Shown here in pieces: positions 50,847 through 64,000 of a stretch of DNA of 64,000 nt (position 1 is its first letter; each line of letters begins with the position of its first letter). The notes under the pieces were generated by a model, which made no database searches, was not told the origin of the DNA, and saw nothing but the letters and a program-made list of their open reading frames with translations. The stretch spans positions 2,790,001 to 2,854,000 of the forward strand of contig NZ_CP118527.1 in NCBI RefSeq assembly GCF_028885415.1, in the 5' to 3' direction. The DNA comes from Streptomyces coeruleorubidus. GTDB lineage: Bacteria; Actinomycetota; Actinomycetes; Streptomycetales; Streptomycetaceae. The translations under genes and the position numbers were made by a program.

Positions 50847-52289
50847 GTGACGGGGGTGGAGTGGCGGTTTCGTGCCGTGGTGGTCGCGCATGCCGTGTCG
50901 GCGTACGGGACCTATCTGAATCTCATCGCGCTCAGCCTGTTCTCGTACGAGGTCACGGGCACCGCCCTGGGCGTGGGCATCGTGATGGCCGTACGGCTGC
51001 TGTCCGGTGTCACGGCGGGCCTGGCCGCCGGGGTGCTGACCGCAAGGGTCACGCGCCGGACCGTCATGGTGGTCACGGACCTCGCCCAGGCCCTCGCCAT
51101 GGTCGTGCTCGCGCTCCGGGCGTCGGACACGCCGCTGTGGGTGCTGCTCGAGGCGGTGGTCGTGCTGGGCGCGGGCAACACGTTCTTCAACGTCGCCCTG
51201 CGCAGCGCGGTGCCGGTCATGGTCGGGCAGGACGAGCGCGCTCGGGCGAACGGCGTGCTGGTCACGGCCCGTTCCGTCGCCACGGTGCTGGGTTTCGCGT
51301 CGGCCGCGCCGGTGATCGCCCTCGGCGGTTTCGGTGTCGCGTTCGCCGTGAACGCCGCGAGCTTCGCGGTGTCGGCCGCGGCCGTGCTGGTGCTCCGGCC
51401 GCGCACGGACGACGACCCGGTGGGCGACCCGCCCGAGGTGCTCCCGGAGCAGGGCGGCACCGGCTCCTCGGGGGGCCGTCTCGGGCGGCTGCGGCTCCGG
51501 GTGGCGGGCCTCGCCGGAGCGTTGCTCGGCATGATCGCGCTGCGAGGTCTGGACGCGCTGGCGTCCGCGTCGCACAACGTCGCGCTGCCGCTGGCGGCGC
51601 ACGCGGCCGAACCGTCCGGTCCGGCGGTGTTCATGACCCGGTTCTGGTCGGCGTGGGCCGTGGGCACCCTGCTCGCCCACCAGGTCCTCAAACGCCGGTC
51701 GCACGGCACGTCCTGGGGCGAGCGCGCGTTCGCGGTGGGCACCTGCGCGATGTCGTTCTGTTTCGTGGCGGCGTTCACCGGGCTGCCCGCCCCGGCCCTG
51801 ATGGCGGCGGCCGTGGCGGCGGGGTTCGCGGACGGCTGGACCGAGATCGTCTACACCTCGCGCCTCCAGGCGGCCCCCGACCGGCAGCGCAGCCGCCTGT
51901 TCGGCCTGTCCGCCACCGCCGAGCAGTCCGGATTCGCCCTGGGCACGATGGCCGCGGCGGCCGCCCTGGAGGTCCTGCCCGCCCTGGCCGTCGTGGGCGT
52001 CTTCCATGGGGCGGCGGTGTGCGGGGCGCTGGCGCTGCTGCTGCTCACGGCGGGCCGGCGCGGCACGGGCCGGCCGGGCCCGGCCGGCGGCGACACCCAC
52101 TCGCCCGCCGCTGAGAACCACCAACCCACAGGCGACAACCGCCCACCCACCGGTGGCGACCACCCGTCAGCCGGCGAGAACCACTCGCCCGTCGGCGAGA
52201 ACCGCTCAGATCATTCGCCAGCCGGCGAAGAAAAGGGAGAAGACGCGCATGGAACGTCCACGGGGGCAAGCCAGTTGCCGGGGTCCTGA
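50847..52289 (+). CDS. MFS exporter coupled to the PKS-NRPS gene, with repetitive C-terminal tail
   Basis: A 480-residue major facilitator of the DHA3 (macrolide efflux/enterobactin exporter-like) type: a long first transmembrane bundle (about 8-180), then RLRLRVAGLAGALLGMIALRGLDALA and the second bundle to about 400. The tail (about 418-462) is cytosolic and built from near-repeats such as PTGDNRP, PTGGDHP, SAGENHS and PVGENRS. GTG 50847 follows GAGGAG (50837-50842). The 3' end overlaps the PKS-NRPS start by 41 nt, so the two are probably cotranscribed and coupled; it likely exports the product or confers self-resistance. Confidence 0.88.
   Translation: MTGVEWRFRAVVVAHAVSAYGTYLNLIALSLFSYEVTGTALGVGIVMAVRLLSGVTAGLAAGVLTARVTRRTVMVVTDLAQALAMVVLALRASDTPLWVLLEAVVVLGAGNTFFNVALRSAVPVMVGQDERARANGVLVTARSVATVLGFASAAPVIALGGFGVAFAVNAASFAVSAAAVLVLRPRTDDDPVGDPPEVLPEQGGTGSSGGRLGRLRLRVAGLAGALLGMIALRGLDALASASHNVALPLAAHAAEPSGPAVFMTRFWSAWAVGTLLAHQVLKRRSHGTSWGERAFAVGTCAMSFCFVAAFTGLPAPALMAAAVAAGFADGWTEIVYTSRLQAAPDRQRSRLFGLSATAEQSGFALGTMAAAAALEVLPALAVVGVFHGAAVCGALALLLLTAGRRGTGRPGPAGGDTHSPAAENHQPTGDNRPPTGGDHPSAGENHSPVGENRSDHSPAGEEKGEDAHGTSTGASQLPGS
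52101..52230 (+). repeat. Degenerate 21-bp coding repeats in the exporter tail
   Basis: About six near-copies of a 7-codon unit of the form (P/S)-x-(G/E)-(E/D)-(N/D)-(H/R)-x encode the hydrophilic C terminus. They lie just before the PKS-NRPS RBS (AAGGGAGA). Copy-number variation among strains would be expected. Confidence 0.6.
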
Positions 52290-55200
52290 GCCCGAACGCA
52301 CGGAGGGCGATCCGGTCGACGCCGTGCGGGCGCTGCTGGGCGCCGCCCGGTCCGCTCCCGGCTCAGCCGTCGTCACCCTCGCCGCCGACGGCACGACGAG
52401 CTCACGGTCGTATCCCGAACTGCTGGACTCGGCCCGCCGTATGTTCACCGGCCTGCGGGCGCACGGACTGCGGCGCGGCGACACGGTGGTGCTGTGCGGG
52501 CTGCCACTGGCCGAGTTCTTCCCCGCTTTCTGGGCCTGTGTGCTCGGCGGTGCCTTACCCGTGGCCATCGCCGAGCACCCCGCGCCGGGCTCCCCGGCCT
52601 TCGAACGCCTGCGGCAGGCCTGCGCGTTGCTCGACCAGCCGCTGGTACTGACCGACGCACCCGGCGCGGCTGCCCTCGCCCACACCACGCCCGCCATGCG
52701 GGTCGCCCTGGCGCGAGAGTGTCTCGCGGCGCCGCCCGCGGACGGCCTCGTCGAGCCGGAACCGTCCGACACGGCCCTGCTGATGCTGTCCTCCGGCAGC
52801 ACCGGCGTCCCGAAGGCCGCCCGGCTGACGCACGCCGGGCTCGCGGACTTCGCGGCGAGCAGCCGGCGGGTCCTGGACGTGCGGCCGGACGACACGATGG
52901 TGAACTGGCTGCCCGTCGACCACAGCGGCGCCTTCCTCCTCTACCACCTGCTCGCGGTCTTCACCGGCTGCACCAACGTCCACGCGCCCACCGAGCACGT
53001 GCTCGCCGACCCGCTGCGCTGGCTCGACCTCCTCCACGAACACCGGGCGCGACACGGCTGGGCACCGACGTTCGCCTACCGGCTGGTCTCGGACGCGCTC
53101 GCCGAGCGGGCCGACCGCTCCTGGGACCTGAGCGGCCTCAAGTCGCTGGTGTGCGGGGGCGAGCGGGTCGTACTGCCGGTGCTGCGCCGCTTCCTCGACG
53201 CGACGGCCCCGTACGGCGTGCGCGAGGAGCACATCGCCCCGGTGTGGGGCATGGCCGAGACGGTCACGGCCGTCACCTACGGCCGGCTGGACCGGCCGGG
53301 CACCGTGCACCGCCTGCTCAAGAACAGCCTGGGCGGCGACCTGGTCCGGGCCGGCGAGGACACCCCGGACGCCGACTGTGTCACCTTCGTGGCCTCCGGC
53401 TCGCCCGCGCACGGCGTCACCCTGCGCATCGTCGACGACCGCGGCGACCTCGCCCCGCCGGGCCGCATCGGCAGGCTCCAGGTCCACTCGGCCGCGCGGC
53501 TCACCCCCGGCTACGTGAACAACCCCGAGGCGGACGCCGCGGCCTACCCGGCCGGAGGCGACTGGTTCGACACCGGCGATCTGGCCTTTCTCCACGACGG
53601 CCAGGTCGTCATCACGGGCCGCCGCAAGGACGTGATCATCCTCAACGGCCACAACGTGTACTGCCACGAGGTGGAGGAGACCGCCACCGCGGTCGAGGGC
53701 GTCCGGCAGGGCGAGGTCGCCGCCTGCGGCATCCCGCACCCGGAGCGGGGCACGGAGGACCTCGCCGTGTTCTTCGTCAGCCGCGGCGCCGCCGAGGACA
53801 TACGTATCGCCGCGGAGGTGAAGGCGGCGCTGTACACCCGCCTCAGGCTCACCGCCGCGTACGTCCTGCCCGTCCCGCTGGGCGAGTTCCCGCGGACGCC
53901 GGCGGGCAAGGTGCGCCGCGCCGAACTCCAGAACCGCCTGGTCACCGGTGGCTTCGGCGCCGCGCCGACCGCGGCACCGGATGCCCGGGCGGACGCGGAC
54001 GCCGTGACCCGGGCCGTCCAGGAGGAACTGAGCGCCGTGCTGGGCCGTCCGGCCGACGCGGATATGCCGTTCTACGAGCTCGGCCTGACGTCCGTACTGC
54101 TGGTGCGCCTGCGGAACCGGCTGGCGGAACGCCTCGGGACGCCGATCGCCCAGACCGCGTTCTTCGAACACCCGACGGGCACGGCCCTCGCGGCACACCT
54201 GGCGAGCGGGGCGACGGCTGCGGCCGGGTTTGAGGCGGGGGTCGGATTTGAGGCGGAGGCCGGGCCCGAGGCGGAGGCCGGGCCCGACGCCGCGGTCAGT
54301 CCCGAGGCTGGGACCCAGCCCAACCCTGCGGTCCAGCCCGACCCTGCCATCCAGCCCAACACCGCCGTCCAGCCAGACCCTGCCATCCAGCCCGAGGAAA
54401 TCACCGGCGAGAGCACCACCGCCGACTCCCCCGAACACCACGTCGCCGTCATAGGACTGTCTCTGCGCTTCCCCGGCGCGAACTCGGTCGAGGAGTTCTG
54501 GACCAATCTCCGGGACGGCGTCGACAGCGTCCGGGTCTTCGGGGAGCAGGAGCTCGCGGCGGCGGGCCTGTCGCCGGAACAGCGCCGCGCGCCCGGCCTC
54601 GTGCCCGCCGCCGGGATCCTCGACGGCGTGGAGGAGTTCGACGGGGACTTCTTCGGGATGAGCCCCAAGGAGGCCGGACTGACGCATCCCGCGCACCGGC
54701 TGTTCCTGGAGTGCTGCCACCAGGCCCTGGAGGACGGCGGCCACGCGGCGACCGCGCCCGGCGTCCGGGTGGGGGTGTTCGCCGGGTCGGGCATGAACCT
54801 CTACGACCACCAGCAGCAGCCCGCGACCGGCTCACCGTACGACCCGTCGGACCCGGCCGCCGGCATGCAGTCGGCCATCGGCCAGGAGCCGGACTTCCTC
54901 GCCACCCGCGTCGCCTACCGGCTCGGCCTCACCGGACCGGCGATCGGTGTGCAGACGGCGTGTTCCACGTCCCTGGTCGCGGTGCACCTCGCGGTGCAGG
55001 CGCTGATCACCGGGGAGACGGACCTGGCGCTGGCGGGCGCCGCGGCCGTGCATCTGCCGCAGGAGACCGGCTATCACAGCCACCCCGGGTCGATCCTGTC
55101 CCCCACCGGACGCTGCCGCGCCTTCGACGCGGAGGCCGACGGCACCGTCGGCGGCAACGGCGTGGCCGCCGTCCTGCTCAAGCGCCTCGACCGGGCGCTG

Positions 55201-58200
55201 GCCGACGGCGACACCGTGCACGCGGTGATCCTGGGCTCCGCCGTGAACAACGACGGCGCCGCCAAGGTCGGCTTCAGCGCTCCCGGTGTCGAGGGACAGG
55301 CCGAGGTCGTACGCCAGGCGCTGCGCAGGGCACAGGTGCCCGCGGAGACGATCTCGTACGTGGAGGCGCACGGCACCGGAACGCGCCTCGGCGATCCGGT
55401 GGAACTCACGGCGCTGGCACGGGCCCTCGGCGAGCACGCGGGTCGCCCCGCCTCCTGCGTGGTCGGCTCGGTGAAGCCGAACATCGGGCATCTCGACAGC
55501 TGCGCCGGAATGGCCGGGCTCATCAAGACGGTCCTCATGCTGCGCAACCGCACCCTGGTGCCGACACCGCACCTCACCCGGCCGAACCCCGAACTGCCCT
55601 TGTCCGACGGCCTGTTGACACTCGCCACGGAACTGCGGCCGTGGCAGGTGCCGGACGGTGTGCCCCGCCGGGCCGGGGTCAGCGCGCTCGGCGTCGGCGG
55701 CACCAACGCCCATGTGGTGCTGGAGGAGGCCCCGCCCGTACGCCCTCGCCCCGCCCCCGAACTGCCCGTCCTCGTGCCCGTGTCGGCCCGCGACCCCGAG
55801 GCCCTGGACGAGCTCACGGCCGGGCTTCGCGACCGGCTGCTGGCCCGGCCCGGCCTCCCGGCCGCCGACGTGGCCGCCACCCTGGCCCTCGGCAGGCCGC
55901 ACCGCGTGGCCCGCACCGCCGTGGCCGGCCGCACGGCAGGCGAACTCGCCCGCGCGCTGGAGGAACAGCACCACGTCACGTCCTCCCCTCTCGGCCCGGT
56001 CGCCTTCGCGTTCGCGGGCCAGGGCAGTGCGCGTCGCGGCATGGCGAACGGCCTGTACGCCGCGCACCCGGCCGCACGGGCCACGCTCGACCGGTGCGAG
56101 GAGATCTACGCCCAGGAGTTCGGCGGCAGCCTGCTCGCGCGGCTGCTGACCGCCCCCGCCCCCGCTCTCGCTCTCGCTCTCGCCGACCGTCCCGCGGACG
56201 ACGAGATCTGGCCCACCGAGACCGCGCAGGCCGCCCTGTTCGCCCATCAGGCGGCACTGGCGGACGCCTGGCGGGCGGCCGGGATACGCCCCGGCCTCCT
56301 GCTCGGCCACAGCGTCGGCGAGTACGCCGCCCTGTACGCGGCCGGTGCCCTGACCCTGGAGGACGGGCTGCGGCTCACCGCCTGGCGCGGGCGACTGATG
56401 CAGACCCGCTGCCCGGCCGGGGGCATGCTCGCCGTCCGGACCGACCAGGCCACCGCGCGGCGCATCGCGCAGGCCGCCGGTGCGGAGCTCGCCGCGGTCA
56501 ACGGCCCGCACGCCCACGTGCTCTCGGGCCCGCCGCAGGCCCTGAAGGAGGCTGCGGCACTGCTCGACCATGAGGGCCTGCGGTGGCGTGCGCTGCCGGT
56601 CGACCGGGCGTTCCACTCCGCCGAGATCGACAGCGCCCTGGACGAGTTCAGGACCCGTGCGCGTGGCGTGACGTACCGTCCGCTGCACACCCCGCTGGTG
56701 ACCACGGCCGACGGTGAACTGCGCCCGGCGGGCTGGACCGCCGACGTGGAGTACCTCTGCCGGCAGGCCCGGCACCCGGTCCGCTTCGACCTCGCCATGG
56801 GCACGGCCGTCGAGCAGGGCTGCCGGGACTTCGTGGAGATCGGCGCCGGGCGGACCCTCACCGGCCTCGGCCGGCACTGCGTACCCGACAGCCGCTGGCT
56901 GAGCGGGCAGGGCGAAGGGGACGGGGCGGCCGAGCAGGCGCATGGGTTCCTGACGGCGCTCGGCTCGCTGTACGGCAGGGGCGCGGACCTGGACTGGGAG
57001 GCGCTGACCGGGGACGGGGGCCGGGTGCGGCTTCCGGGGCATCCGCTGCGACGGCGTACGGTGCCGTACCAGGCCGTGACGCCGGCCGCGGCTCCTGACC
57101 TGCCCGTACCGGACGGTGAAGTCATCGGTGCCGTCCGGCAGTTGACGGCCGACAAGCTCGGCCGCCCGATCGCCGACGTCACACCGGACAGCTCGTTCTT
57201 CGAACTGGGCGCGGACTCGCTGTCCCTGATGAGCATGACGACGGAGCTGGAGCAGCGGTACGGCGTCCGGGTCCCGGTCCGGGAGGTGTTCGACTCGGCC
57301 GACACACCGCGGAGGCTGGCGGAACGGGTCGGGCGGTTGCGCGAAGACGTGCCGGTGATCCAGGAACCGGTGGTCGAGCAGCCGGCGGCGCCTGCCGCTC
57401 CTCCGGAATCACCGGAGGAGCTGCCGGAATCACCCGAAGGGCTGCACGCCCTGTTCGGTCAGCAGCTACGGCTGGCGGAGCAACTCGTCGACCAGGTGGG
57501 CGAGATGATCTCCCGCCAACTGGACGTGCTCGCGACGACCGGCACCACGACGGCACCGCCCACTCCGGCACGGACGCCGGCACCCCTTGTCCCCCGGCCC
57601 GCTCCCACGCCCACCCCCTCCAACCCGCCCCCTGCCGCCTTCGACTTCAGCCTCTACTTCTTCGGCGACTACCCCCAGGACACCGACCACGACAAATACG
57701 GCCTGATCATGGCCGCCGCGGACTTCGCCGACCAGCACGGCTTCCACGCCCTGTGGTTCCCCGAGCGGCACTTCAACTCCTTCGGCGCGCTCTTCCCCAA
57801 CCCCTCCGTGCTGGCCGCGGCCCTCGCCGCCCGGACCAGCCGGATCCGGCTGCACGCCGGTTCCGTGGTGCTGCCGCTGCACCATCCCGCCCGGGTCGCG
57901 GAGGAGTGGTCGGTGGTCGACAACATCTCCGGCGGCCGGACGGGCCTGTGCTTCGCGAGCGGCTGGCACGCGACCGACTTCGCGCTCGCGCCGCAGCACT
58001 TCGGCCGGCACCGCGAGGTGATGTACGAGCACCTGGCGACCGTACGGGACCTCTGGGCGGGACAGCCGGTGCAGACGACGGCGGGCGACGGCACCCCCGT
58101 CGAGATCCGCCTGCACCCCCGCCCCGTACAGGAACGGCCGCCGATGTACGTGGCCGTCGTGGGCAATCCGGACAGCTACCGCCGGGCGGCCGCCGAGGAC

Positions 58201-61200
58201 CTCGGTGTGGTCACCAACCTGATGACGCAGACGGTGGAGCAACTGGCCGAGAACATCGCGCTGTACCGGCGCTGCCGTGCCGAGCACGGTCTCGACCCGG
58301 CGGCCGGGCGGGTCGTGGTGCTGGTGCACACGTACCTGGAGGACGACTCGGAGCGGGCGCGGGCCGAGGCGTACCGGCCTTTCCTGTCGTATCTGCGCTC
58401 CTCGCTCTCCCTCTTCGACCAGGTCACCAACAGTCTCGGTTTCCAGGTGGACCTGGAGAACACGCCCGAGGAGGACGTGGAGTTCCTTCTCGGTCGCGCC
58501 TACGAGCGCTACTGCGACTCCCGCGCGCTGATCGGCGACGAGCACACGGCCGCGGAGACCGTACGGCGTCTGCGGGAGGCCGGTGCGGACGAGATCGCCT
58601 GCTTCGTGGACTTCGGCGTACCGAAGGAGAAGGTGCTGGCGGCGCTGCCGGTACTGGACCGGCTCCGCAGGGCGGCTCCCGGGACGAAGCCTCCGGCACC
58701 CTCAGCGCCCCGCCGGGCGCCGCTCACCCCCGCCCAGCGCCGTATCTGGTTCCTGGAGCAACTGCACCCGGGTACCGCCATGTACCACGAGCCCAAGGCG
58801 ATCCGGCTGGAAGGCCCGCTGGACGTCCCGGCCCTGCGCTGGGCGCTGGACCGGGTCACGGACCGGCACCCGGCGCTGCGCACGGTCTTCGGTGACACGG
58901 CCGGTGTCCCGTACCAGGAGATCCTCGACCGTATGCCGCTCGACTGCCCGGTGGAGGACCACACGGGTTCGACCGAGGAGGAGGCCCTGCGGTCGGCACT
59001 CGCGGACGACCACGGACTCGACCTCGCCACGGGTCCTCTGGTCGCGGCCCGCCTGCTCCGCCTGTCCCCGGACCGCCACCTGCTCTTCCTCCTGGCCCAC
59101 CACATCGTCTTCGACTCCTCCTCCACGGCCGTGCTGGCCCGTGACCTGGCCGCGTACTACCGCGCCCGGCGGGGCGGCAGTGCGGGCTCGGAGCCGCCGC
59201 CCCTGCCCGAACTGCCGGCGGCACCCGAGGCAGACCCCGCGTCTGTGGACTTCTGGCGGCAGCGCCTCGGCGACGCGCCGGAGCTGACCCTGCCCACCGA
59301 CCGCCCCCGCCCGCCGGTCAGGACGGGAGCGGGTGCGAGCCTCACGCACGCCCTGGACGCGGAACTCGTCAGGGACCTGCGGAAGTTCGCCGCCGGGCAC
59401 CGCGCCACCCTCTTCATGACACTGACCGGCGCGATCGGCGCGGTCCTGGGCCGTTTCAGCGGGCAACGGGACGTGGTGATCGGCACCGCGGTGGCGGCCC
59501 GCCCCGCGGGCGCGGAGGACCACGTGGGCCTGTTCCTCGACACCGTGCCGCTGCGCCTGGACCTGACCGGTGAGCCGGACTTCCCGACGCTGCTGCACCG
59601 GGTCCGGGAGAGCAGCACGTCGGCGTACGAACACCGCGGCGTCCCCTTCGACGAGTTGGTGGGCGCGCTCAACCCGCGTCGTGACCCGGGCCGCAATCCG
59701 CTGTTCCAGGTGATGGTGGAGTACGAGAACGAGGGCGAGGCCCTCTTCGACCCGCCCCGTCTGACGGCCACGCTGCTCGACGTCCCGAGCGCCCGCGCTC
59801 CGTTCGACCTCAGCGTCTACCTCACCCACCACGCGGGCGGCGTCCGCTTCATGGTCGAGTACGACACGGCCCTCTTCGACGAGGCCACGGTGCGCCGCTT
59901 CGTGGGCTACGTCGAACAGGTCCTGCGCCGCGCCCTGGACGCACCGGGCGCGCCGCTCGCGGACCTGACCGCACTCACGGCCGCGGACCGCACGGCCCTG
60001 TCCCACGCGGAGCACCCCGGCGAAGGGCCCCGGGCCACTCTGCACGGCCTGTTCGAGCAGCAGGCCCGCCGCACCCCGGACGCCGTAGCTCTGATCAGCG
60101 GGGAACAACACCTCTCCTACGCGGACGTGGACGCGGCGGCCAACCGCCTCGCCCGGCAGTTGCGCACCCGGGGCGCGGCGCGCGGAGAGCGGGTCGCCGT
60201 ACTCCTGCCGCGAGGTCCGCAGCTGATCACGGCCCTGCTGGCGGTGCTCAAGAGCGGGGCGGCATACCTCCCTCTCGACCCGTCCCTTCCCACTCCGCGT
60301 CTGTCGCTGCTGCTCGACGACGGCACACCCGTACTCCTGCTCACCTCCGGCACCGCGATCGCCGGGCACCCGCGCCTGGCGCCGGAGCTGCCCGTCCTGC
60401 GTGTGGAACAGGCGGACGACACACTGCCGTCCACCCCGCTCACGGACGGAGCCGGCCCGGAGGACCCTGCGTACTGCATCCACACCTCGGGCTCGACGGG
60501 CCGCCCGAAGGGCGTCGTCGTGCCCCACCGCGGCCCGGCGAACCTGGTCCACGGCCATCTGCGCCGCCACCCCGCGCTGCGCACCCTCCAGTGGACGTCA
60601 CCGGCGTTCGACGTCAGCGTGCAGGAGATCTTCACGACGCTGGCCTCGGGAGCCGCGCTCGTCCTCGTCGACGACGCCGTACGGCACGACCCCGCGGCGC
60701 TGGCGCAGGCGGTACGCCACCACCGGGTGCAGCGCATGTTCATGCCCTGCACCCCGCTGAAGTACCTGATGGAGGCCGCCCCCCAGCTGCCCTCCCTGCG
60801 CGAGCTGTTCTCGGCGGGCGAGGCACTCCAGCTCACGCCCGCCTTCCGCCGCTTCCTCGCCACGCACCCGCACTGCGCGCTCTACAACCAGTACGGCCCC
60901 ACGGAGACGTCGATCATCGTCACGTCGCACCGCGTCGACCCGGCCGGCGAGGAGTGGCCCCCGATCGGCACCCCGGTGCCGGGGGCGCGCATCCTGCTGC
61001 TGGACGACTCGGGCCGGCCGGTCCCGGTCGGCGCCGTCGGCGAGATCCATGTGAGCGGCACGCCGGTGGCGCACGGCTACCACAACCGCCCGGCCGAGAC
61101 CGCCGCCGCGTTCCTCGACGACGGCGCGGGCGGGGTGCTGTACCGCACGGGCGACCTGGGCCGCCGGCGCACCGACGGCACGCTGGAGTACCGGGGCCGG

Positions 61201-63168
61201 GCGGACGACCAGGTCAAGATCCGCGGCTACCGCGTCGAACCGGGCGAGGTGCAGTCGGCGTTGACGGCACTGCGCGGGGTCCGGGACGCGGCGGTGCTCC
61301 CCCGCCGCGACCGCCACGGTGACATGGAGCTGGTGGCGTACGTGGTGCCGGCCGATGCGGCCTCCTGGCCCGACCCGCGCACCGCACTGGCCGCCGAACT
61401 GCCCGACCACCTGGTGCCCCGCCGATGGGTGACCCTCGACCGCCTCCCGGTGAACGCCTCCGGCAAGCTGGACCGCACGGCCCTGCCGGATCCGGGGGAC
61501 GAGTCCGCCGAGCCGTCGCAGACCGGGCCGACGACGGCCCTGGAGAAAACACTGCACGACCTGTGGGGCGAGGAACTGGACGCCCGGCCGATCCCGGTCA
61601 CTACCTCGTTCTTCGAACTCGGCGGCCACTCCCTGAGCGCGATCCGGCTGCTGAACCGCATGCGGGAGGAGGCGGACGTCGATCTCACGATGGCCGACTT
61701 CTTCCTGGATCCGACGATCCGAGGCATCGCGACACGTAACCGTGTCGTGGACACCGCGCCGATGCCCTCGACCCTGCGCCGTCTGTGGCGCCGCCACCAC
61801 GCACTCCCCGACCCGAGCGTCTACAACATCGCCCACCGCATGGATCTGAGGGGGGACTTGGAGCCCGAGGTCCTGCACGAGGCCCTCAGGGACCTGGTGG
61901 CACGCCACCACGCGCTCCGCGGCAGGCCGGTCCGCCGAGAGGACGGACGGTACGAGGTCGAAATCCTGGCCCATGTCCCCGTGACGCTGCCGATCACCGA
62001 CCTCCGCGCCCACGCCGGGGACGCGGAGTACCTGGACCGCTGGTGCCGAGAGCAGGTCGCCACCCCGTTCACGCTGAACCAGACCCCGCTCTTCCGATTC
62101 CGCCTGGCCCGTCTCGCCGAGGACCACTGGGTCATGGTGACGGTCTTCCACCACGCGGTCTGCGACGGCTGGTCCCTGAGCATCATCAGGCGCGACCTAC
62201 AGGAGCTGTACAACGCGCGTCGATCCGGTACGGCACTCCAACTGCCCGTCACTGTCGCTCAGTTCACGGACTTCGCCCGATCGGAACACACCCTGCCGGA
62301 CAAGCGCAGGACAGCCCTGGAGCACTTCTGGCGCACGGAACTCGACAACGTCCCCCTACGCCCGCCCCTCCCCTACGACCACCCGCACCCGGGCAAGCTC
62401 TCCGGCCGGGGCGCCCTGCACACCTGGACCGTCACCGACGACACACCCGCCCGCCTGGCCGGCACGGCAACCCGCCTGGGCACCACCGCCTACACGGTCC
62501 TCGCGGCCACGTTCGCCACGTGGCTGGCCGACCTGTGCGGCGAACGAGGCGACATCGTCCTGGCGGCCTCCAGCGCGAACCGCGTGCAACGCGACCGCGC
62601 CGAGATCGTCGGCATCCTGGGCGACGCCGTACTCCTACGGGCCCGGCTGTCCGAAGCGGAAACCTTCCCCGACCTGGTGTCCCAACTGAGCAGCACCCTC
62701 TTCACGGCCCTCGATCACCAGGAACTGCCCCTGACGGACGTGGTGTCTCTCGTCTCGCCCGAGCTGAAGGACGCCCTGTTCCCCACGGTCCTGTTCACAG
62801 TGATCACCACAGAGCCGCCGGCCCTGAACCTCCAGGAGGTCTCCACCACCATCCGCGCCCTCCCCGTCCAGGGCGTGGCCCGCAACGAGCTCTACGTCGT
62901 GATCGCCCCCGAGACCGACGCGATCACGGTCACGTTCGAGTACTCGACGGACCTGTTCACCCACGAGACGGTCCAGGCGTGGGCCGGGTCCTTCACCGAG
63001 GCACTGAGGTCGGCGGTGGACTCCGGGAACCAACTCCGGGAACTAAGGGAAACCGCTGCTACAGCGCGTCCACCGCGCTCACCTTCCACCCGTCGCCCGT
63101 GCGGTCCATCGTCATCCGCACCCGGTTCAGGTCCACGCGGGACCCCGAGACCTGGGTGCTCTGGGTGA
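52249..63168 (+). CDS. Hybrid PKS-NRPS: AL-ACP-KS-AT-ACP-MOX-C-A-PCP-C
   Basis: A 3639-residue megasynthase. Domains: acyl-AMP ligase (about 22-560, SSGSTG 181-186); ACP1 (Ser615 in GLTS); repetitive linker (655-725); KS (728-1162, Cys905 in TACSTS); AT (1250-1555, Ser1355 in GHSVGE, RAFH 1453-1456 favouring malonyl-CoA); ACP2 (Ser1657); luciferase-like FMN monooxygenase (1800-2140, WFPERHFNSFG); C1 (2158-2585, HHIVFDS from His2284); A (2600-3080, Ser2747 in SGSTG); PCP (Ser3128); C2 (3172-3600, HHAVCDG from His3301). No KR, aminotransferase or TE. My reading of the A-pocket is D-V-Q-F-F-A-Q-I-I-K, nearest the proline-type codes but not a clean match. Expected chemistry: an acid is loaded, extended once by malonate, probably alpha-hydroxylated, and joined to one amino acid. 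Codon 103 is TTA. ATG 52249 follows AAGGGAGA. The last 36 codons lie antisense to the next gene. Confidence 0.93.
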   Translation: MERPRGQASCRGPEPERTEGDPVDAVRALLGAARSAPGSAVVTLAADGTTSSRSYPELLDSARRMFTGLRAHGLRRGDTVVLCGLPLAEFFPAFWACVLGGALPVAIAEHPAPGSPAFERLRQACALLDQPLVLTDAPGAAALAHTTPAMRVALARECLAAPPADGLVEPEPSDTALLMLSSGSTGVPKAARLTHAGLADFAASSRRVLDVRPDDTMVNWLPVDHSGAFLLYHLLAVFTGCTNVHAPTEHVLADPLRWLDLLHEHRARHGWAPTFAYRLVSDALAERADRSWDLSGLKSLVCGGERVVLPVLRRFLDATAPYGVREEHIAPVWGMAETVTAVTYGRLDRPGTVHRLLKNSLGGDLVRAGEDTPDADCVTFVASGSPAHGVTLRIVDDRGDLAPPGRIGRLQVHSAARLTPGYVNNPEADAAAYPAGGDWFDTGDLAFLHDGQVVITGRRKDVIILNGHNVYCHEVEETATAVEGVRQGEVAACGIPHPERGTEDLAVFFVSRGAAEDIRIAAEVKAALYTRLRLTAAYVLPVPLGEFPRTPAGKVRRAELQNRLVTGGFGAAPTAAPDARADADAVTRAVQEELSAVLGRPADADMPFYELGLTSVLLVRLRNRLAERLGTPIAQTAFFEHPTGTALAAHLASGATAAAGFEAGVGFEAEAGPEAEAGPDAAVSPEAGTQPNPAVQPDPAIQPNTAVQPDPAIQPEEITGESTTADSPEHHVAVIGLSLRFPGANSVEEFWTNLRDGVDSVRVFGEQELAAAGLSPEQRRAPGLVPAAGILDGVEEFDGDFFGMSPKEAGLTHPAHRLFLECCHQALEDGGHAATAPGVRVGVFAGSGMNLYDHQQQPATGSPYDPSDPAAGMQSAIGQEPDFLATRVAYRLGLTGPAIGVQTACSTSLVAVHLAVQALITGETDLALAGAAAVHLPQETGYHSHPGSILSPTGRCRAFDAEADGTVGGNGVAAVLLKRLDRALADGDTVHAVILGSAVNNDGAAKVGFSAPGVEGQAEVVRQALRRAQVPAETISYVEAHGTGTRLGDPVELTALARALGEHAGRPASCVVGSVKPNIGHLDSCAGMAGLIKTVLMLRNRTLVPTPHLTRPNPELPLSDGLLTLATELRPWQVPDGVPRRAGVSALGVGGTNAHVVLEEAPPVRPRPAPELPVLVPVSARDPEALDELTAGLRDRLLARPGLPAADVAATLALGRPHRVARTAVAGRTAGELARALEEQHHVTSSPLGPVAFAFAGQGSARRGMANGLYAAHPAARATLDRCEEIYAQEFGGSLLARLLTAPAPALALALADRPADDEIWPTETAQAALFAHQAALADAWRAAGIRPGLLLGHSVGEYAALYAAGALTLEDGLRLTAWRGRLMQTRCPAGGMLAVRTDQATARRIAQAAGAELAAVNGPHAHVLSGPPQALKEAAALLDHEGLRWRALPVDRAFHSAEIDSALDEFRTRARGVTYRPLHTPLVTTADGELRPAGWTADVEYLCRQARHPVRFDLAMGTAVEQGCRDFVEIGAGRTLTGLGRHCVPDSRWLSGQGEGDGAAEQAHGFLTALGSLYGRGADLDWEALTGDGGRVRLPGHPLRRRTVPYQAVTPAAAPDLPVPDGEVIGAVRQLTADKLGRPIADVTPDSSFFELGADSLSLMSMTTELEQRYGVRVPVREVFDSADTPRRLAERVGRLREDVPVIQEPVVEQPAAPAAPPESPEELPESPEGLHALFGQQLRLAEQLVDQVGEMISRQLDVLATTGTTTAPPTPARTPAPLVPRPAPTPTPSNPPPAAFDFSLYFFGDYPQDTDHDKYGLIMAAADFADQHGFHALWFPERHFNSFGALFPNPSVLAAALAARTSRIRLHAGSVVLPLHHPARVAEEWSVVDNISGGRTGLCFASGWHATDFALAPQHFGRHREVMYEHLATVRDLWAGQPVQTTAGDGTPVEIRLHPRPVQERPPMYVAVVGNPDSYRRAAAEDLGVVTNLMTQTVEQLAENIALYRRCRAEHGLDPAAGRVVVLVHTYLEDDSERARAEAYRPFLSYLRSSLSLFDQVTNSLGFQVDLENTPEEDVEFLLGRAYERYCDSRALIGDEHTAAETVRRLREAGADEIACFVDFGVPKEKVLAALPVLDRLRRAAPGTKPPAPSAPRRAPLTPAQRRIWFLEQLHPGTAMYHEPKAIRLEGPLDVPALRWALDRVTDRHPALRTVFGDTAGVPYQEILDRMPLDCPVEDHTGSTEEEALRSALADDHGLDLATGPLVAARLLRLSPDRHLLFLLAHHIVFDSSSTAVLARDLAAYYRARRGGSAGSEPPPLPELPAAPEADPASVDFWRQRLGDAPELTLPTDRPRPPVRTGAGASLTHALDAELVRDLRKFAAGHRATLFMTLTGAIGAVLGRFSGQRDVVIGTAVAARPAGAEDHVGLFLDTVPLRLDLTGEPDFPTLLHRVRESSTSAYEHRGVPFDELVGALNPRRDPGRNPLFQVMVEYENEGEALFDPPRLTATLLDVPSARAPFDLSVYLTHHAGGVRFMVEYDTALFDEATVRRFVGYVEQVLRRALDAPGAPLADLTALTAADRTALSHAEHPGEGPRATLHGLFEQQARRTPDAVALISGEQHLSYADVDAAANRLARQLRTRGAARGERVAVLLPRGPQLITALLAVLKSGAAYLPLDPSLPTPRLSLLLDDGTPVLLLTSGTAIAGHPRLAPELPVLRVEQADDTLPSTPLTDGAGPEDPAYCIHTSGSTGRPKGVVVPHRGPANLVHGHLRRHPALRTLQWTSPAFDVSVQEIFTTLASGAALVLVDDAVRHDPAALAQAVRHHRVQRMFMPCTPLKYLMEAAPQLPSLRELFSAGEALQLTPAFRRFLATHPHCALYNQYGPTETSIIVTSHRVDPAGEEWPPIGTPVPGARILLLDDSGRPVPVGAVGEIHVSGTPVAHGYHNRPAETAAAFLDDGAGGVLYRTGDLGRRRTDGTLEYRGRADDQVKIRGYRVEPGEVQSALTALRGVRDAAVLPRRDRHGDMELVAYVVPADAASWPDPRTALAAELPDHLVPRRWVTLDRLPVNASGKLDRTALPDPGDESAEPSQTGPTTALEKTLHDLWGEELDARPIPVTTSFFELGGHSLSAIRLLNRMREEADVDLTMADFFLDPTIRGIATRNRVVDTAPMPSTLRRLWRRHHALPDPSVYNIAHRMDLRGDLEPEVLHEALRDLVARHHALRGRPVRREDGRYEVEILAHVPVTLPITDLRAHAGDAEYLDRWCREQVATPFTLNQTPLFRFRLARLAEDHWVMVTVFHHAVCDGWSLSIIRRDLQELYNARRSGTALQLPVTVAQFTDFARSEHTLPDKRRTALEHFWRTELDNVPLRPPLPYDHPHPGKLSGRGALHTWTVTDDTPARLAGTATRLGTTAYTVLAATFATWLADLCGERGDIVLAASSANRVQRDRAEIVGILGDAVLLRARLSEAETFPDLVSQLSSTLFTALDHQELPLTDVVSLVSPELKDALFPTVLFTVITTEPPALNLQEVSTTIRALPVQGVARNELYVVIAPETDAITVTFEYSTDLFTHETVQAWAGSFTEALRSAVDSGNQLRELRETAATARPPRSPSTRRPCGPSSSAPGSGPRGTPRPGCSG
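54226..54396 (+). repeat. Tandem coding repeats in the ACP1-KS linker
   Basis: Two repeat types abut. Units near GAGGCGGAGGCCGGGCCCGA encode (F/P)EAEAG. Units near CAGCCCGACCCTGCCATC encode QP(D/N)(P/T)A(I/V). They form a flexible acidic-then-Pro-rich linker (residues about 660-716) between the loading module and KS. Confidence 0.75.
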
Positions 63169-63841
63169 CCTGGTTGACGAAGAGCAGGACCACGACCTTG
63201 TCGGGGGAGGCCGAGACGACGGAGGCGGCCGGGGCGGCGCCGGAGCCGGGGGCGGCGACCGTCGCCTTCACCACGCCGTGGTACTTCCTGGCCGTCGGGG
63301 CGACCACGGTCTTCGTGGTCTTGCCGTACTCGTCGCGGAAGTCGCCGGTCAGGTGCGCGCGGGCCCGGGAGAAGTCCTTGTCCAGGCGGCGGTAGTCGTA
63401 CGACAGGACGATCGGCGCCGCTTTGCGCGCGGCCGCGAGCGCCTCGGTCCGGGCGGTCTCCGTCAGGCGGCCGTCGCGGTACTGCCATCCCAGGGCGGCG
63501 AGCGCGACCAGGCCGACGACGAGCAGGACGGCCAGGACCAGGGTGAGCAGCCTTTGACGGCCGCCGGGGCCGGGCTCGCTCCGCTTCTGCGGCTCGTCCT
63601 CCTCGAACGACTCCGGCGACGGCTCCGGCGGGTCGTCCCAGCCGTCCTTCGGGGCCTCGACGAGGACGGTGCGTCCGGCGGGCGGCAGCTCGGCCCGGCG
63701 CGCGGACTCCTCGTCGCCGGCCGTCGCCGCGCCCGCTTCGCGGTGGCCGCGCTCGGCGCGCTTCGCCGCCGCGCGGGCGGCCGCCGTCATGGTGCGGCGG
63801 GTGCCGGGACCGGGGGCGCGGCCGGTGGTCGTCTTCGGCAT
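63059..63841 (-). CDS. Mce-associated membrane protein
   Basis: 260 residues. A long charged, Pro-rich cytoplasmic head (1-95) is followed by one membrane helix (about 98-120, LLTLVLAVLLVVGLVALAALGW) and an extracytoplasmic domain with ALAAARKAAPIVLSYDYRRLDKDF and ARAHLTGDFRDEYGKTT, the pattern of Mce-associated (Mas) proteins. These stabilise Mce lipid-import complexes of the actinobacterial envelope. ATG 63841 follows GAGGAG. The last 110 nt overlap the 3' end of the convergent PKS-NRPS frame. Confidence 0.88.
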   Translation of the reverse strand: MPKTTTGRAPGPGTRRTMTAAARAAAKRAERGHREAGAATAGDEESARRAELPPAGRTVLVEAPKDGWDDPPEPSPESFEEDEPQKRSEPGPGGRQRLLTLVLAVLLVVGLVALAALGWQYRDGRLTETARTEALAAARKAAPIVLSYDYRRLDKDFSRARAHLTGDFRDEYGKTTKTVVAPTARKYHGVVKATVAAPGSGAAPAASVVSASPDKVVVLLFVNQVTQSTQVSGSRVDLNRVRMTMDRTGDGWKVSAVDAL

Positions 63842-63889
63842 GGTGGTACTCCTCGTCGGTGCTTGTCGGTCGGCGAATCGGCCCGTGGA

Positions 63890-64000
63890 TCAGCCGACGA
63901 ACTCGACGTCGGACGTCAGCCAGCGGCCGTCCTTGTGCACGAGGTCGAGCTGGAGCCGGTACGTGCGCGCCTCCCCCTCGGGCACGGCGGTGTTCGTCAC
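63890..64000 (-). CDS. Probable second Mce-associated protein (5' part outside window)
   Basis: The C-terminal 36 residues are readable before the TGA at 63890-63892: NTAVPEGEARTYRLQLDLVH, then KDGRWLTSDVEFVG. The YRLQLDLV..DGRWLTSDVEFV ending is the usual last strands of Mce-associated proteins. It lies 48 bp upstream of, and in the same direction as, the preceding gene, so the two probably end an mce operon that continues beyond the window. Confidence 0.7.
   Translation of the reverse strand: MTNTAVPEGEARTYRLQLDLVHKDGRWLTSDVEFVG

Follow-up and report, generated by a model that had tools for sequence, protein, structure and literature searches.

A two-gene biosynthetic cassette of Streptomyces coeruleorubidus was analysed in a 64,000-nucleotide stretch of DNA (positions 2790001-2854000 of contig NZ_CP118527.1, G000:C1), called the window below, from a single-contig genome of 9.41 Mb. 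The first gene of the operon, at 50847-52289 of the forward strand, encodes a putative exporter of the major facilitator superfamily (MFS; Pfam match to MFS_1 with E 1e-20). The second gene, at 52249-63168 of the same strand, is a single open frame for a hybrid polyketide synthase and non-ribosomal peptide synthetase (PKS-NRPS) of 3639 amino acids (aa). The two genes overlap by 41 nt (52249-52289), so that the coordinates and overlap given in the first-pass annotation, which had been made from the letters without database searches, were reproduced. A script for locating the synthase start resolved seven of 19 loci, and the 41-nt overlap is present in six of them: the window, L042, L043, L044, L046 and the plasmid record L109, whose own annotation also yields it. 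In the seventh (L056), a gap of 63 nt separates the genes. The pair is a self-contained cassette that many actinobacteria have kept, and its product is probably a single small compound.

Domain architecture and conservation of the cassette

The synthase consists of a loading ligase, an acyl carrier protein (ACP), a ketosynthase (KS), an acyltransferase (AT), a second ACP, a monooxygenase, a condensation (C) domain, an adenylation (A) domain, a peptidyl carrier protein (PCP) and a terminal C domain, as assigned with Pfam (PF00501 twice, PF00550 three times, PF00109/PF02801, PF00698, PF00296 and PF00668 twice) and NCBIfam. The same order had been read by eye in the first pass, and it is identical, terminal C domain included, in 20 of 20 relative loci (stretches of 19-20 kb) compared by BLAST with the window, ACP1 not being called in L057. 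Models of a ketoreductase (KR), an aminotransferase and a thioesterase (TE) are not among the 11 Pfam families matched, and the aminotransferase family PF00202 is absent from the synthase, in agreement with the earlier remark that KR and aminotransferase are missing.

All domains lie on the forward strand. The inspected catalytic residues are kept in all 21 aligned synthases. These include the serine motifs of ACP1 (54010-54213, PF00550) and of the PCP (61540-61746, PF00550), the active-site Cys of the KS (54427-55743, PF00109/PF02801) and the active-site Ser of the AT (55981-56883, PF00698); two of the ATs carry Ser or Ala for the Gly of GHSxG. The AT is probably malonyl-specific, which is what we take its RAFH motif to mean. 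ACP2 (57112-57339, PF00550 at residues 1628-1694) is located immediately upstream of the monooxygenase. The ratio of non-synonymous to synonymous substitution rates is 0.30 against L042, 0.29 against L044 and 0.28 against L047; the synthase is under purifying selection. Taken with the invariant order and the kept catalytic residues, these values indicate that the architecture is not a product of chance.

A query with the monooxygenase domain gave matches at E 1e-40 or better in 149 of 392 genomes of the genus. In 19 of those, S. coeruleorubidus included, the match has at least 77% identity and lies within a frame of 3464 aa or more; three further matches have 69-71% identity, and for one of these the contig is 6.8 kb long. 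In the class, 26 of 394 genomes matched at E 1e-70. The 20 relative loci come from these matches. A protein search gave 1129 matches among 2300 candidates scored, from which the best 120 were taken; 110 of them were analysed, two proteins of other architectures (P0066, P0094) and eight shorter than 3200 aa being set aside, and these 110 full-length homologues with the window make up the 111-row alignments used below. Among the matches listed, the carriers are first of all Streptomyces, then Actinophytocola, Kibdelosporangium, Lentzea, Actinokineospora, Actinosynnema and Saccharothrix, and one protein cluster named S. albidoflavus has 279 members.

A relative of the exporter adjoins the synthase in 17 of the 20 relative loci. 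Clustering of neighbouring genes with a cruder gene caller found members of the exporter family at 15 of 21 loci and those of any other family at four at most; the exporter is thus the sole widely shared neighbour, and the small self-contained operon proposed in the first pass is upheld. One cassette is located on a linear plasmid of Streptomyces aurantiacus (L109, NZ_CP114282.1 1-18434), where the phosphonate genes aepX/aepY adjoin it and an ISAs1 transposase is nearby. In L048 (15448-17298), the cassette adjoins a tRNA-Met and two tRNA-Asn genes, possibly an insertion site, and in L061 (3803-5104) the gene following a distant synthase relative resembles a cytochrome P450 by eye. Upstream of the exporter, no motif shared beyond near relatives was seen by eye in 18 loci, and an iron-regulated siderophore was weakly rejected.

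The monooxygenase domain and its presumed reaction

The monooxygenase domain (57646-58668) was compared with family models and structures. Residues 1800-2140 match TIGR04020, the model of MupA/Atu3671 luciferase-like monooxygenases, with 471 bits against a cut-off of 244 and cover model positions 1-341, its whole length. The best solved relative by sequence is 6KET, the puwainaphycin synthetase domain PuwE (404 bits). The AlphaFold model of the domain, with a predicted local distance difference test (pLDDT) value of 88.5, superimposes on 6KET with a TM score of 0.92 and 50% identity in the structural alignment. The segment was earlier described as a flavin mononucleotide (FMN)-dependent luciferase-like monooxygenase; this description was not refuted by the comparisons and can be narrowed to the MupA/PuwE type. 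With 55% of columns conserved, it is the most conserved of the seven domains measured.

The phylogenetic tree of the domain comprises 89 rows, namely 56 of 57 loci (L089, a frame without the upstream part, was left out) and 33 proteins picked by hand from 240 listed; the upstream context of the rows was determined by BLAST over about 500 residues only. The window's kind forms one clade of 42 rows, 40 with an ACP directly before the monooxygenase and two cut short, with support of 100/99. The adjoining clade has 14 rows, 11 with an aminotransferase and three fragments, and L083, which also has an aminotransferase, stands beside it. Each of the two clades is well supported, and they are sisters under midpoint rooting only; with this root, the aminotransferase was likely lost in the window's lineage. 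The kinship with microginin-type lines suggested in the first pass agrees with this position beside the aminotransferase-coupled clade and with 6KET being the nearest solved structure. The ACP label requires five changes over the whole tree, and ACP-monooxygenase junctions are not unique to the window's clade, since the fragments P0134 and P0205 carry the label elsewhere. Four alignment columns at 90% separate 35 aminotransferase-less domains from 12 coupled ones; as candidate diagnostic residues for coupling, they were not interpretable.

Some other TIGR04020 loci can be noted. L062, L063, L064 and L065, which lie in or beside the aminotransferase-less clade, have other gene orders with no terminal C domain called and share the A-domain motifs DVSVQ and QYGPTE with the cassette. 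In L092, L093 and L096, the order is C-A-monooxygenase-A with A-domain matches on both sides, as if the monooxygenase were inserted in an adenylation domain. The same chromosome carries a second locus of the aminotransferase type near one end (L039, G000:C1:25000-44999; 449 bits); its domains are scattered over several overlapping open frames, and it looks broken.

As to the reaction, the best guide is MupA, the mupirocin alpha-hydroxylase after which the family is named. According to the accessible part of PMC10952193, its substrate is a beta-keto thioester: in vitro, a gain of 16 Da was seen for the beta-keto thioester on ACP_D4 alone and not for the free pantetheine form, the product is labile, and reduction is said to come afterwards. 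These experiments contradict the earlier view of a beta-keto thioester as a less familiar substrate. Because such a thioester is what MupA accepts, and because neither KR nor aminotransferase is present in the line, we infer by analogy that alpha-hydroxylation of the beta-keto chain would be the default reaction here. The first pass had left alpha-hydroxylation and oxygen insertion side by side; the former can now be taken as the default, and the MupA results make the latter less likely.

The monooxygenase might instead insert oxygen or trigger a skeletal change, either by Baeyer-Villiger oxidation of the beta-ketone or by an alpha-hydroxylation that leads on to chain shortening or to a Favorskii-like shift, and the product would then be an acyloxy-acetyl or rearranged hydroxy acid amide. 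A Favorskii-like step has reportedly been proposed for fabrubactin. In what is accessible of PMC8739492, the luciferase-like enzymes CalD and MndB combine alpha-hydroxylation with Baeyer-Villiger-type chain shortening, and this precedent keeps a rearrangement among the rivals. A type II Baeyer-Villiger enzyme is also found among the structural matches, but with 18% identity, 6KET being far closer. In addition, the closest characterised relatives either hydroxylate, as MupA does, or are proposed to do so, as in the puwainaphycin line, where the accessible text of PMC4219810 describes PuwE as yielding 3-amino-2-hydroxy acyl chains. We consider oxygen insertion or a skeletal change unlikely.

Starter unit, amino acid and release

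The loading adenylation domain (52351-53958) scores 340 bits with StsA (6ULX), 283 bits with McyG (4R0M) and about 152 bits with fatty-acyl ligases (152 with 3PBK, a fatty acyl-AMP ligase, FAAL). At the position of Asp235 of amino-acid domains, the alignment has Ser in the window and in 111 of 111 rows, and the DHS motif is present in 110 of 110 full-length homologues. The loader is hence neither closest to the solved FAALs nor provided with a motif of their type, and it has Asp235 replaced, as do StsA and McyG; the domain labelled 'AL' earlier bears little resemblance to a classical fatty-acyl ligase. As far as the accessible part of PMC11253843 goes, StsA takes alpha-ketoisocaproate and has Ile306 at this position, and McyG takes Phe and has Val227. 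Judging from these sequence features, the starter is likely an acid without an alpha-amino group, perhaps of the keto, hydroxy or aryl type. A fatty-acyl ligase as the loader, giving a lipid-tailed acyl amino acid, would accord with the top NCBIfam models, which are those of acyl-CoA ligases (308 bits, below the cut-off of 572) and of fatty acyl-AMP ligases (244 bits, below 600), and with the PKS-type fatty-acyl starters reported for puwainaphycin in the accessible part of PMC4219810. This reading is rather improbable in view of the StsA and McyG scores and of the loader motif WLPVDHSGAF, which aligns with WLPFYHDMGL of 3PBK.

The first C domain (58702-60024, PF00668) has HHxxxDS instead of HHxxxDG, with Ser for Gly in 111 of 111 rows. 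In sister-type loci, the first C domain after the monooxygenase has Ala at this Gly position in 12 of 13 printed. The following A domain (60040-61494, TIGR01733 395 bits) has the pocket D-V-Q-F-F-A-Q-I-I-K, read by hand. Over the 111 rows, its positions are occupied as follows: D235 in 111, V236 in 106, Q239 in 107, F278 in 104, F299 in 81, A301 in 104, Q322 in 106, V/I330 in 111, I/V331 in 107 and K517 in 111, and 33% of the A-domain columns are conserved at 95%. The pockets of L060 and L061 differ. One amino acid is likely used by most of the family. Parts of the pocket resemble what we take to be the proline code; the string itself was not found in the literature searched.

A true microginin-type line with an aminotransferase acting in trans would make an alpha-hydroxy-beta-amino acyl peptide. 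The sister cassettes do carry an aminotransferase immediately before the monooxygenase, but a tblastn search at E 1e-5, in which the control L068 was found, gave no aminotransferase match in the 20 loci, the window, two flanking stretches or the plasmid record, the rest of the genome lying outside this search. The cassette retains the exporter alone, and amination in trans appears highly unlikely.

The terminal C domain (61771-63024, PF00668) is the presumed release domain. In 109 of 110 full-length homologues no domain comes after it, whereas 665 residues follow it in the remaining one, and the synthase ends in a C domain without a TE, as terminal-C release lines do. All 111 rows have the second His and the Asp of its motif, and 95 of them show HHxxxDG strictly. 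It is nearly the least conserved of the measured domains (19% of columns; AT 18%). Three sister-type loci (L069, L079, L080) have the last C domain in an open frame of its own, which fits a role in release or transfer. Basiliskamide and phormidolide are precedents for release by terminal C domains, as stated in the accessible part of PMC8739492.

The final ~45 residues of the synthase (63025-63168) form a tail that is partly antisense to a convergent gene on the opposite strand (63059-63841), read by eye from its translation, without a family search, as Mce-associated. The codon-position GC (guanine and cytosine) signature shifts near 63000-63060. In the near relatives L042 and L043, a stop codon stands immediately 3' of the last C domain, and a small length difference carries the frame of the window beyond it; the tail is for these reasons probably non-functional. 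A frameshift concealing more domains was rejected after all six frames of 62400-64000 had been read, the DNA that follows looking by eye like an mce operon on the other strand. A truncated pathway, with the terminal C domain left over from a longer line that the mce operon had cut off, was rejected, although the frame ending in a C domain without a TE and entering an antisense gene might suggest it. It is largely refuted by the fact that all 20 relatives, mostly at different sites, also end in a C domain, and by the last place of this domain in the homologues, along with the stops of L042 and L043 and the purifying selection.

Proposed pathway and related systems

We propose the following pathway. 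The loading domain would adenylate a keto, hydroxy or aryl carboxylic acid that lacks an alpha-amino group and load it onto ACP1, and the KS and AT would extend it by one malonate to a beta-ketoacyl-ACP2, which meets neither reduction nor amination in the line. Supplied with FMNH2 by a cellular reductase, the monooxygenase would hydroxylate the acidic alpha-carbon to give an alpha-hydroxy-beta-ketoacyl thioester. The first C domain would couple this chain to a single amino acid, for which proline and pipecolate are candidates. The product would then be freed by the terminal C domain through an ester or amide, perhaps onto the new hydroxyl, and exported by the MFS protein. We give this sequence of steps, leading to one conserved small molecule, a probability of roughly 60%.

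Several observations weigh against the proposal. MupA did not turn over acetoacetyl-ACP (accessible part of PMC10952193), so that chain structure matters and its reaction is not automatically transferable. The best NCBIfam models of the loader are the ligases named above. The proline assignment depends on a code that we presume, and Phe299 occurs in only 81 of 111 rows; in 16 of the 111 rows, the terminal C domain departs from strict HHxxxDG, with Asn or Ser for the first His in seven of the 16. Next to the synthase of L055, L060 and L061, no member of this exporter family is present; a different neighbouring gene starts, by eye, like a transporter in L055 and L061. Finally, no published product or domain order was found in the literature, MIBiG and most subscription papers lying outside the search.

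As a more tentative suggestion, which we hold to be doubtful as a whole, the cassette may make an unrecognised class of compounds in Streptomyces, Lentzea, Saccharothrix, Actinophytocola and relatives, in which an alpha-hydroxy-beta-ketoacyl imino acid is closed by the terminal C domain onto its own hydroxyl, giving a bicyclic morpholinedione or a close relative. As only four columns separate the sister clades at 90%, the beta-ketone may be the substrate of the monooxygenase in all of these lines, with the aminotransferase acting afterwards, contrary to the domain order as drawn. The cassette is a natural test of a MupA/PuwE-type monooxygenase where neither reduction nor amination is available, and it bears on whether hydroxylation or amination comes first in microginin-type synthetases. 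Across the 111 aligned proteins, there is hardly any variation in either substrate pocket, which points to one conserved product in varied surroundings, once on a plasmid. The two-gene size makes expression easy, and the product can be sought directly.

The Streptomyces sister cassettes (L066-L077 and others) resemble the window in having an MFS exporter, which is present in 15 of 15 sister-type loci (L066-L080), KS-AT-ACP, monooxygenase-C-A-PCP-C and the terminal C domain. They differ in having at least two synthase genes, an aminotransferase (L068, L079 and others), no loading domain seen and another A-domain pocket. The pipecolate modules of FkbP and RapP also have the order C-A-PCP-C, in which ester closure is ascribed to the terminal C domain, and end large macrolides; a search with the C-A-PCP-C tail gave 3621 matches, and no FkbP or RapP name occurs in the best 120 of the 3621. 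In microginin and puwainaphycin lines, a class III aminotransferase lies between the ACP and the monooxygenase, whereas the window's family has none, with neither PF00202 in the synthase nor a tblastn match. Like the window, the puwainaphycin line has KS-AT-ACP, the monooxygenase and then C-A-PCP (6KET; accessible part of PMC4219810). Two other systems were set aside: dudomycin is unrelated, its synthetase being C-A-PCP-TE (accessible part of PMC7696016), and ichizinone is a different system with a separate luciferase-like gene among 16 genes (accessible part of PMC12144821).

The loaders of StsA and McyG are the best-scoring solved relatives of the window's loader, and all three have Asp235 replaced, by Ile or Val in the enzymes for alpha-ketoisocaproate and Phe (accessible part of PMC11253843) and by Ser in the window. 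MupA shares with the monooxygenase the TIGR04020 family and, judging by the family model and the published reaction, an ACP-bound beta-keto thioester that is neither reduced nor aminated beforehand. It acts in trans in a trans-AT PKS, where a KR reduces the ketone later, whereas the window has a built-in domain in a cis-AT line without reduction. Each domain type of the synthase is known from such systems, and their combination is a conserved variant.
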